From Candidatus Puniceispirillum sp. (GTDB lineage Bacteria; Pseudomonadota; Alphaproteobacteria; Puniceispirillales; Puniceispirillaceae), in the NCBI GenBank assembly GCA_028382965.1, contig JAOEUK010000002.1, positions 62,001-126,000 on the forward strand: a stretch of 64,000 nucleotides of DNA, given 5' to 3'. How positions within the stretch are numbered: position 1 is the stretch's first letter; each line of letters starts with the position of its first letter. The translations under genes were made by a program, and so were the position numbers. The notes beneath the pieces were generated by a model, which did not search any database, had not been told where the DNA came from, and saw only the letters and a program-made list of their open reading frames with translations. Of this stretch, positions 36,201-40,518 are shown in pieces.

Positions 36201-37601
36201 ATGGCACGCCAAGCACATCAAAGACCCAATAATAAACGGATAAAAAAATCAAATCAAAAAAAAAGCCAGCTGCCAAAAAACTCTCCACCCATCAACGTGA
36301 CTATCAGCCATATCGGTGGACGTGGTGATGGCATTGGTAAAGTCCAATATATACATAATCATATCCAAGCAGAGCATGACATATTTGTTCCCGCTAGCTT
36401 GCCTGGCGAAAGGCTTTCAGTACGACCCCTTTCATTAAATACACAAGGGATCAAAGCTCAAATCGTTGAACTTCATTCGACATCACCTGATCGTCAGGAA
36501 CCACGATGCGAAGCCTTTCCAGCTTGTGGTGGGTGTCGCTTTCAGCATTGGGAGGAAACAGCGATAAGAATATGGAAACAAAATCTTGCCATAAAATTTT
36601 TAAATCAAGTTGGTGTAAATATCGGCAATATAAAGCCTTTCTACCAGTCACCACTCAACAGTAGAAGACGTGCCAGCTTCCATCTAAAATGTTTGTCAAA
36701 CAGCACAATCGTGGGGTTCCGTGAACAGATGGGTCAGCATATCATTGCCCCTATCGGCTGTGTCGTATTACATCCAGCTTTGCTAGCTTTACAGGCACAG
36801 TTGCAGCAATTTTCCAGTGTACATTTCCCCGCTGGTTTTGCTGCTACTGCACATGCAAATCTTCTGGATCAAGCCACTGGCACCAGCAATGATGAAAACA
36901 TTTGCCTCTACCTGAAGCCAATTCCTGGCGCCCAGCCGTTTACTTCAGACATGCTAATAAAATTAAGTGACTGGGCAGCTTCCAACAGTTTAGCGCGACT
37001 TTCTGTAGCCATCCATGATAGCCCAATGACACTTTTTGCACCCGAAATACCAATTATTAGCTTTGGCAAAATTGGTGTCTCACCGCCACCAGGCACCTTT
37101 TTACAAGCCACTCGAGATGGTGAGGCATTATTGCAAGCTGCAGTTGCTGAAATTATTGGTCCAGCACACCAAATCGTAGACCTATTCGCAGGTTGCGGTA
37201 CACTCAGTCTGCCCTTACTTGATCAAGTAGTAGGACTTTTGGCAGTTGAGCAAGATGCCATTGCGCTTTCCACCTTAAAAGCGGGTGCAGATGCTGCTGG
37301 GTTGGGGGGTCGCGTTAGAACTGACGCCCGCAACTTGTTTGATGCTCCATTGACACCCAACGAGCTTACACCTTTCGATAAGGCAATTCTTGATCCACCG
37401 CGAAGTGGTGCGGCAGCCCAATGCCAGATGCTTGCAGAGTCAAAAATTTCAACAGTGGCTATGGTATCATGCAACCCATCGAGTTTTGCCCGAGACGCTA
37501 GAATACTTGCTAATGCAGGTTTCAAACTTAATTGGGTTCAGGTTGTTGATCAATTCTTATTCAGCAATCACCTTGAAATAGTTGGCTCCTTCGATCGCTA
37601 G
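36201..37601 (+). CDS. Class I SAM RNA methyltransferase (RlmD/RumA/TrmA family)
   Basis: Makes 5-methyluridine in 23S rRNA or tRNA. A basic tail (residues 1-30) is followed by a TRAM-like domain (VTISHIGGRGDGIGKVQYI). The Fe-S cluster Cys set appears as CEAFPACGGCRFQHW plus a later GCVVLHP. The SAM loop is VDLFAGCGTLSLPLL, the DPPRSGAAAQC motif follows, and the catalytic Cys is in VSCNPSSFARD. The length (466 residues) fits. It lies 46 bp after ispB with an AAAGG site. Which uridine is modified is not decided. Confidence 0.92.
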   Translation: MARQAHQRPNNKRIKKSNQKKSQLPKNSPPINVTISHIGGRGDGIGKVQYIHNHIQAEHDIFVPASLPGERLSVRPLSLNTQGIKAQIVELHSTSPDRQEPRCEAFPACGGCRFQHWEETAIRIWKQNLAIKFLNQVGVNIGNIKPFYQSPLNSRRRASFHLKCLSNSTIVGFREQMGQHIIAPIGCVVLHPALLALQAQLQQFSSVHFPAGFAATAHANLLDQATGTSNDENICLYLKPIPGAQPFTSDMLIKLSDWAASNSLARLSVAIHDSPMTLFAPEIPIISFGKIGVSPPPGTFLQATRDGEALLQAAVAEIIGPAHQIVDLFAGCGTLSLPLLDQVVGLLAVEQDAIALSTLKAGADAAGLGGRVRTDARNLFDAPLTPNELTPFDKAILDPPRSGAAAQCQMLAESKISTVAMVSCNPSSFARDARILANAGFKLNWVQVVDQFLFSNHLEIVGSFDR

Positions 37602-37681
37602 GTAGATATGATATAAAAATTACCCCAACACCAAAAAAAGCTTCATTGTCAAAAGGTACTTTGCCAGCCCATGATAGCAGC

Positions 37682-37924
37682 ATGATAAAAAAAAGATCCA
37701 TAACCATCCAAGGTCATCGAACTAGCATCTCGCTTGAAGAACCATTCTGGATTATCTTGCAAAACATCGCCGCGCATCGTTGCCTTTCAATGGCAAGCCT
37801 TGTCCAAATTATTGACCAGGACCGCAATTGTGGCCTGTCATCAGCACTAAGACTTTTTATTTTAGCCGAATTGGTGCAAAATAACGCCGGTGATACAACA
37901 ATTACAAGGCCGCTGGGACACTAA
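37682..37924 (+). CDS. Ribbon-helix-helix domain protein
   Basis: Short DNA-binding-type protein of the RHH_4 (PF13467-like) kind: KKRSITIQGHRTSISLEEPFWIILQNIAAHRCLSMASLVQIID, then SSALRLFILAELVQ. In other alphaproteobacteria such proteins are annotated as ribbon-helix-helix or aryl-sulfate-sulfotransferase-type; function is unknown. I chose ATG 37682 because the fold starts there; the open frame extends 12 codons upstream to 37646. It is 80 residues with this start. Confidence 0.72.
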   Translation: MIKKRSITIQGHRTSISLEEPFWIILQNIAAHRCLSMASLVQIIDQDRNCGLSSALRLFILAELVQNNAGDTTITRPLGH

Positions 37925-38013
37925 TTTCTATTTAGTAACAATAGATTTTTAGCAGTCGTATATAAATGTGACATATTTCAAGGCTTTTTCAACCAAAGAG
38001 AGATGATTTGCGA

Positions 38014-38484
38014 ATGCATGTTGCAATACTCCTTGCTGGCCACTCCAATAATGCAATGCCAGAACGGTTTCATGATTATCATTATATCTTTACTACCTTG
38101 TTTTCTGGCTTGCCATTTGGTGAAATCTTTTGCCTAACTTCGTTAGCAGTTGTTGATGATGATGTGTTTCCTGATCAAGTTACCAGCCTTCCAAAGGGTG
38201 CACGGCTTATTGGCACTACAAATCATTACAAAACCGCAGCCTATATCATTGATGATTTGGTATTTGCCATTCAGGGACAACCAGAATTTGATGTTGCATA
38301 TACTAGTACGCTTGCTGATCTGCTTGAAAAAAATGCTAACACTCTTTGCATTCAAGCAGCACATAAATCGTTTTCAATACCTCATAATGGTAAAAAAGTT
38401 GTTAGTTGGATTCTCTCATTTTTTTCCAACATAAGTCTGGTCACTGACGGTGCTAATGCGCTATGCAACTATGATATTAGCTAG
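38014..38484 (+). pseudogene. Glutamine amidotransferase relic lacking the catalytic core
   Basis: Open frame of 156 residues that reads like a class I glutamine amidotransferase with its middle removed. The N-terminus (MHVAILLAGHSNNAMPERFHDYHYIF) and the part from about residue 58 (QVTSLPKGARLIGT, then VFAIQGQPEFDVAY) match the two ends of the fold. The section that should carry GxCxGHQ with the nucleophilic Cys is absent, and the catalytic His of QGHPEF is Gln. About 75-80 residues seem missing compared with family members I recall. The frame is intact, so it could be a recent in-frame deletion or a protein with a new, non-catalytic role. It lies 24 bp before the HyuA-type gene. Confidence 0.7.
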
Positions 38485-38508
38485 TAAAAAAGAACAGGGA
38501 CTTTTTAT

Positions 38509-40518
38509 ATGTCGCTCGTAATTGGTCTAGACACAGGAGGCACCTACACCGACGCAGCCCTTCTTAATGTAGATCAGGGGGATGTTCTAGCCACTAGCAA
38601 AGCACTGACAACGCACGATGATTTATCAATTGGACTGGGTAACGCCATTGCTAAAGTCCTAAAGGCTTATAATGGCAAAGCAGACAACATTTCGCTTGTC
38701 TCTCTTTCAACAACACTTGCTACTAATGCTGTTGTCGAGGGTGTTGGTGGTCGCATTGGCCTATTGATGATTGGATTTGACGATGCGGCACTCCAGAGGG
38801 CAGACCTTGCTCGAGCAATAGGACGGGATCCATTTTATTTTATCGATGGTGGGCATAAACCCGATGGCAGCATCCAGCTACCTCTTGACATAGCAAGCCT
38901 TGAAACCATTGCCAACAAACTAAAATCTGAAGTGTCTGCTTTTGCCGTTGCTGGACATTTTGCAACACGAAATCCACTGCATGAAACCCAAGCGTGCAAT
39001 ATTTTGCGCGACATTACCCACCTGCCCGTAACATGTAGCCATGAATTATCTTCATCACTTGGCGGACCACGGCGCGCATTAACTGCAGTGCTGAATGCCA
39101 GACTAATCAGTATCCTAGAACGACTAATCACGGCCACACAATGCATTATGACTCAGCAAGGTCTTACCTGCCCCCTAATGGTCGTTAAGGGAGATGGATC
39201 TTTATTGCAGGCAGATTTTGCTCTTTCCCGCCCTGTCGAAACAATACTATCAGGTCCAGCAGCAAGCCTCTCAGGTGCAGCATTTCTTGCTGGTGCCAAG
39301 AGTGCCCTTGTTGCCGATATTGGTGGGACCACAACCGATATCGCTTTTTTGAAAAATGGAACTCATCGTTTAAAAAAAGACGGCGCTGTTGTTGGCGGAT
39401 GGCAAACAATGGTCGAAGCAGCTGAAATTCGGACGTGCGGGATTGGAGGTGACAGTGAGGTCACTCTCAATTTGCGTGGACGCAGTGGTGGATTGACCCT
39501 TGGTCCACGACGAGTTGTTCCATTATCACTTTCAGCCATACGATGGCCCATAATTAAAGATTATTTAGCTAGTCAACTAGCCCTTCCTGTAGCTAACACA
39601 ACCGACGCTCAGTTTGTTTTTCCTATTATGCCTAATGGTGTTCCAAAATGGCTAACACGATCTGAAAGCAGAATTGCTAAAAAAGCTATTTCCAACGGTT
39701 TTTCGCCAGTAGGAAAGATTGCCTCAACACAACTAACCCTTGGCTCAGTTGGCCGGTTAGTCAGTCGCGGTTTACTTGGAATTTGCGGTTTTACTCCAAC
39801 TGACGCTACCCACGTCATTGGAAGTTTTAAAGAATTTGACAGTGAGGCTGCTATGCTTGGAGCAAAATTACTAGCACGTCAGCGTAATGGTGCTGGTGAA
39901 GTGATTGCCGACACACCCAACATGCTTGCTGAAATGATTCTAAACGAACTTCATCGCAGTTCATCTCTTGCACTCGTAGATGCAGCAATGGCTCATGAAG
40001 GGAGTAGTGAGAAGATAAGTTTAAACAATCCAATCTTAGCAAATGCTTTTGATGAAGAAGCGTCAAATATTTGTCGTTTGGTTTCAGTTGGAGTAACTTT
40101 AAACACTAATCTTATTGCACTGGGTGCCTCAGCGGCCACACATTATCCCCAAATAGCTAAAAATCTTGCAACAAACCTGATTGTCCCTGATAATGCCAAT
40201 GTGGCCGGTGCTGTTGGTGCAGCAGCCGGTTCGGTGCAACAAAGAGTTCTGATTTCAATTACCCAACCGTACAAGTCTAAATTCAGAATCCACCTTCCAG
40301 ATGGACCTATAGATAGAGCTAGTTTAGAAGAAGCGCTAGCTACATCTCGCATTGCAGCAACAGAATTAGCCAAAGAGCGTGCACAAAACGCCGGCGCAAT
40401 AACTGTTGACGTTAAGCTTGATGAGGAAATTAAGCTTGTGGCACTGTCAACAGGTGAAAATCTTTTTATTGAGGCAGTGATATATGCCACTGCACAGGGT
40501 CATGCGTCCAGGAGGTGA
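38509..40518 (+). CDS. Hydantoinase/oxoprolinase family protein, HyuA type
   Basis: ASKHA-fold protein related to the A subunit of N-methylhydantoinase, 5-oxoprolinase and acetone carboxylase. The N-terminal GLDTGGTYTDAALLN and the second nucleotide-binding loop VADIGGTTTDIAFLKNG are intact, with SLSTTLATNAVVEG between them. It has 669 residues, a full A-type protein. No HyuB-type partner is found within the window, so substrate and activity are open. AGGGA precedes the ATG by 8 bp. The amidotransferase relic directly upstream probably shares its transcript. Confidence 0.87.
   Translation: MSLVIGLDTGGTYTDAALLNVDQGDVLATSKALTTHDDLSIGLGNAIAKVLKAYNGKADNISLVSLSTTLATNAVVEGVGGRIGLLMIGFDDAALQRADLARAIGRDPFYFIDGGHKPDGSIQLPLDIASLETIANKLKSEVSAFAVAGHFATRNPLHETQACNILRDITHLPVTCSHELSSSLGGPRRALTAVLNARLISILERLITATQCIMTQQGLTCPLMVVKGDGSLLQADFALSRPVETILSGPAASLSGAAFLAGAKSALVADIGGTTTDIAFLKNGTHRLKKDGAVVGGWQTMVEAAEIRTCGIGGDSEVTLNLRGRSGGLTLGPRRVVPLSLSAIRWPIIKDYLASQLALPVANTTDAQFVFPIMPNGVPKWLTRSESRIAKKAISNGFSPVGKIASTQLTLGSVGRLVSRGLLGICGFTPTDATHVIGSFKEFDSEAAMLGAKLLARQRNGAGEVIADTPNMLAEMILNELHRSSSLALVDAAMAHEGSSEKISLNNPILANAFDEEASNICRLVSVGVTLNTNLIALGASAATHYPQIAKNLATNLIVPDNANVAGAVGAAAGSVQQRVLISITQPYKSKFRIHLPDGPIDRASLEEALATSRIAATELAKERAQNAGAITVDVKLDEEIKLVALSTGENLFIEAVIYATAQGHASRR

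Follow-up and report, generated by a model that had tools for sequence, protein, structure and literature searches.

A probable recent pseudogene of a GGP1-like glutamine amidotransferase next to an intact hyuA-like gene in Candidatus Puniceispirillum

Gamma-glutamyl peptidase 1 (GGP1) of Arabidopsis thaliana (PDB 9k7i–9k7l) has the class I glutamine amidotransferase (GATase) fold and is the closest solved relative of a GATase family found in the SAR116 order. The full-length SAR116 orthologue resembles GGP1 in having the Cys nucleophile and the catalytic His/Glu motifs, and its AlphaFold model (pLDDT 96.7, pTM 0.93) matches GGP1 with TM 0.89–0.90 over the whole length, at 26% sequence identity. 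The bacterial amidotransferases of NCBIfam PRK05665 and PRK06490 provide a further comparison. We analyzed a short open reading frame in the window, that is, the whole 64,000-nucleotide stretch of DNA considered here, from Candidatus Puniceispirillum sp., a member of the SAR116 group of marine Alphaproteobacteria. Its product is like PRK05665 in its C-terminal half, with much of the protein gone; unlike GGP1, it has neither the Cys nor the nucleophile elbow, and a Gln takes the place of the catalytic His. This reading frame is most probably a recent, lineage-specific pseudogene of a GGP1-like class I GATase.

The frame is open for 156 codons, ends in TAG, and lies 24 bp ahead of the ATG (38509) of a hyuA-like gene (Table 1), both values being the same as those given by a sequence-only reading of this DNA. 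That reading had proposed that the two ends of a class I GATase are joined here, and each end of the short protein (residues 1–59 and 51–139) indeed matches one end of full-length orthologues from the same genus. These matches are at 52–66% identity to the nearest orthologues, with E values down to 1e-26. The two ends map to separate parts of a single open frame of ~240 codons in the same-genus relatives (aligned orthologues are 238–246 amino acids in length). No Pfam family, GATase included, matches the remnant; its C-terminal half matches PRK05665 (E 7e-14) with a score of 52 bits where the cut-off is 309, and its top PDB sequence match is GGP1. Homology does not extend over the family length, as orthologue residues 1–52 and 150–235 alone remain. 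Its orthologous position in an array conserved across the order nevertheless shows that the remnant derives from a functional gene of this family at this locus. The chance of a random frame of the same composition staying open for 156 codons is ~8e-5, and the frame is therefore inherited rather than a product of chance.

Table 1. Features of the GATase remnant and its conserved neighbors (positions in the window).
Feature	Position	Strand	Basis
RlmD/RumA-like RNA methyltransferase gene, conserved upstream neighbor	36201–37601	+	Synteny; name by sequence reading
RHH_4 ribbon-helix-helix protein gene, conserved upstream neighbor	37646–37924	+	PF13467
Remnant of class I glutamine amidotransferase (GGP1/PRK05665-like) gene, 156 codons	38014–38484	+	Similarity to full-length orthologues
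GAT GAT GAT run beside the deletion, containing one extra Asp codon relative to all orthologues	38155–38163	+	
Deletion junction (exact cut ambiguous; orthologue flanks share just a few bases)	38170–38181	+	Alignment to orthologues
CAA (Gln) at the position of catalytic His185 of QGHPEF	38278–38280	+	Full-length orthologues
Probable one-base deletion and frameshift; the other frame keeps an ending of usual length, TGA at 38445–38447	38424–38447	+	
Former intergenic spacer, read as approximately the last 11 codons and stop	38448–38484	+	
hyuA-like gene, hydantoinase/oxoprolinase A domains, 669 amino acids, intact, conserved neighbor	38509–40518	+	Pfam PF05378, PF01968

Aligned with its orthologues, the remnant passes directly from Pro52 to Asp150, residues 53–149 (97 codons, 291 bp) being gone in frame. 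The fusion reported in the sequence-only reading is thus borne out, but not its position near residue 58, as the aligned join falls at 53/54 (around 38172). The deleted stretch holds the Cys98 nucleophile, its VCFGHQ elbow (motif G-[VI]-C-F-G-H-Q), and half of the central sheet, in agreement with the reported absence of the Cys-bearing GxCxGHQ region. Among 28 family orthologues, 55 positions are near-invariant, and 25 of these, including Cys98, fall in the deleted stretch. Four of the 30 that are retained have changed in the remnant (C168Y, F173Y, H185Q, and L216F); other genus members have 0–1 changes each at the same 30 positions. The catalytic His-x-Glu of QGHPEF reads QGQPEF, with the Glu kept and the His replaced by Gln, as had been noticed. 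By motif, His185 corresponds to the His mutated in the GGP1 H192N entry (PDB titles), and therefore a second catalytic residue has also been lost.

Two further lesions had gone unremarked in the sequence-only reading. One is the extra GAT codon beside the deletion. The other is at the 3’ end, which diverges from all orthologues after FF, and where the frame shifted by two bases has an ending of usual length. The distance from this out-of-frame old stop to hyuA is 61 bp, as compared to 58–61 bp in the nearest relatives. The simplest reading of this alignment is a probable one-base deletion near 38424–38430, beyond which the frame now runs on across the old spacer as far as a TAG TAA pair. Compared with the orthologous genes at this locus, the 291-bp deletion, the His-to-Gln substitution, and the probable terminal frameshift are disabling changes of the sort that mark a pseudogene.

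In the model of the full-length orthologue, the deletion takes strands 60–63, 94–97 (which leads to the nucleophile), 111–114, 120–128, and 141–148, along with helices 76–89 and 99–107. The AlphaFold model of the short protein is of moderate confidence (pLDDT 79, pTM 0.60) with a low-confidence tail, and its matches to GGP1 in the PDB are no more than weak. The remnant might still form a small fold. It cannot, however, act as the enzyme, because the Cys and the nucleophile elbow required for a GGP1-type reaction are lost and the His is replaced by Gln.

The gene order rlmD-like, RHH_4, GATase, and hyuA-like is shared by the genus and those sister genera that were examined, and is followed in the genus, as in the window, by rpoD and dnaG. 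A close hyuA homologue is present in 65 other genomes, and in 61 of these a GATase gene lies directly upstream of it; this is the result that the sequence-only reading had named as favoring a deletion. The four exceptions (G006, G022, G037, and G064) are partial hits that start, or seem to start, at contig ends. Within the genus, 12 of the 15 other members compared have a full-length GATase, and in one more (G014) the 3’ part is present where a contig ends. No GATase was found in the remaining two members, G006, in which a contig opens with hyuA, and G013. GATase and hyuA are adjacent in three SAR116 families. The GATase also occurs commonly beyond this order. Conservation of the pair beyond SAR116 was rejected at the depth of this search, as hyuA occurs within 3.5 kb at 7 of 80 loci, all of them SAR116-like. 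The RHH_4, GATase, and hyuA-like array (36201–40518 in the window, and orthologous loci) is conserved across the SAR116 order, with the pair not found elsewhere. From this conserved adjacency, the GATase and the HyuA-like protein may have had a joint substrate in the past. The remnant and hyuA are probably co-transcribed. Searches of the locus for an RNA element, promoter, or terminator gave nothing above chance, and no paper on the GATase–hyuA gene pair in SAR116 was found in the literature searched.

The hyuA-like frame is itself interrupted in some relatives. It is broken near codon 510 in G015 and changes frame near codon 515–528 in G010, both of which have a full-length GATase; these are draft genomes, and decay and assembly error fit alike. 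A single TGA occurs in the hyuA-like frame in each of G042 and G037.

Loss of the GATase seems to have occurred more than once in the order. In two genomes of another SAR116 family, genes of this GATase family have decayed independently: one has 96 C-terminal residues and two stops (G077, C4:77500-82500), and the other is missing the first 69 residues, which form the N-terminal third (G094, C2:23500-28500). No hyuA partner was found there. In the window genome (2.38 Mb, 39 contigs), no other gene of this GATase family was found. Functional replacement within the genome was rejected, as its seven other GATase domains (by sequence reading CarA, TrpG/PabA-like, GuaA, PyrG, two HisH-like, and a peptidase C26-like) all belong elsewhere.

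Selection on the retained codons was estimated from eight genomes with a purpose-written branch codon model. With synonymous sites probably near saturation on the window branch and the genome shifted to low GC3, the resulting omega figures are rough: 0.14 for the retained GATase codons on the window branch vs. 0.10 elsewhere (2dlnL 0.4, not significant), 0.063 vs. a background of 0.10 for hyuA, and 0.084 vs. 0.133 for the rlmD-like gene. In relative terms, the retained GATase codons are about twice as relaxed as their neighbors, a difference that is not significant alone, and the hyuA-like gene of the window genome is intact and strongly constrained. The dN/dS check proposed in the sequence-only reading rejects neutrality (omega = 1) for the retained codons over the whole branch (2dlnL 10.8), in a model that averages over a long functional period before the deletion. 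When the branch was split into constrained and neutral parts, the best neutral share was 0–0.02, and its upper limit, taken at 1.92 log units, was ~0.17–0.3. For these GATase codons, amino-acid identity to the outgroup within the genus is 42.8% for the window copy and 55.5% for intact relatives; the corresponding values for hyuA are 65.9% and 72.8%. Taken together, omega and identity indicate that inactivation occurred late on a long branch or that some constraint persists. Base-composition drift was considered as a sign of relaxation and is uninformative, the whole region of the genome being at low GC3.

The non-neutral record of the retained codons, with a neutral share near zero, counts against a pseudogene and leaves some room for repurposing, in which the remnant would be translated and retained without catalytic activity, perhaps to assist or regulate the HyuA-like enzyme encoded next to it. 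The branch omega not significantly above background, the open frame, the moderate-confidence model, and the position adjoining a constrained hyuA are all consistent with such a role. We nevertheless consider repurposing unlikely. The codon model averages over the functional period, and the open frame comes cheaply: the probability that 468 bases acquire no stop after 10, 20, or 30 random substitutions is 0.70, 0.50, or 0.36, respectively, and the open frame is therefore weak evidence of function. Repurposing also sits poorly with the altered near-invariant positions and the frameshifted tail. A comparable short copy was found neither in 151 genomes nor in a scan of contigs with the short protein, and the idea that short GATase-like proteins lacking the Cys form a family of their own was rejected on this ground. 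The repurposed, non-catalytic protein that the sequence-only reading had offered as one of its two options is, with the His lost as well, without support. The specific form in which the 156-residue remnant is an accessory of the HyuA-like amidohydrolase is very unlikely; if true, an enzyme would recently have been converted, in frame, to a structural or regulatory role beside its neighbor.

It is also very unlikely that the full-length gene is real and that the junction was mis-joined in assembly or sequencing. The genome is a single draft assembly in 39 contigs, and the few bases common to the orthologue flanks at the junction could favor such an error. A single mis-join, however, leaves unexplained the change of His to Gln, the extra Asp codon, and the one-base frameshift, and the flanking genes are in their expected order.

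A recent pseudogene, as read from this one genome, remains the best explanation, and the deletion option of the sequence-only reading is supported by full-length orthologues at the same locus and by the in-frame absence of 97 codons. The deletion, which plausibly arose by slippage or recombination at the few shared bases, took away Cys98 together with half of the central sheet, and His185 has become Gln; a one-base frameshift at the end of the gene is strongly indicated. The enzyme presumably became dispensable in the window lineage. That the frame is still open may reflect how little neutral time has elapsed, and stops just upstream of a constrained, probably co-transcribed hyuA might have been selected against, helping to keep the frame.

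As a finding, this is ordinary gene decay, of some slight use in that a conserved gene pair has here been taken apart by nature: the GATase and HyuA-like genes, neighbors across three SAR116 families, are uncoupled in the window genome. Because hyuA is intact and strongly constrained beside a broken GATase, the HyuA-like gene is suggested not to need its GATase partner in this lineage, which narrows guesses about a joint GATase–HyuA pathway. The locus resembles lineage-specific bacterial deletion pseudogenes, in which a dispensable enzyme gene is lost and its neighbors are kept; it differs from these in that the frame of the remnant is still open, and is otherwise not unusual.
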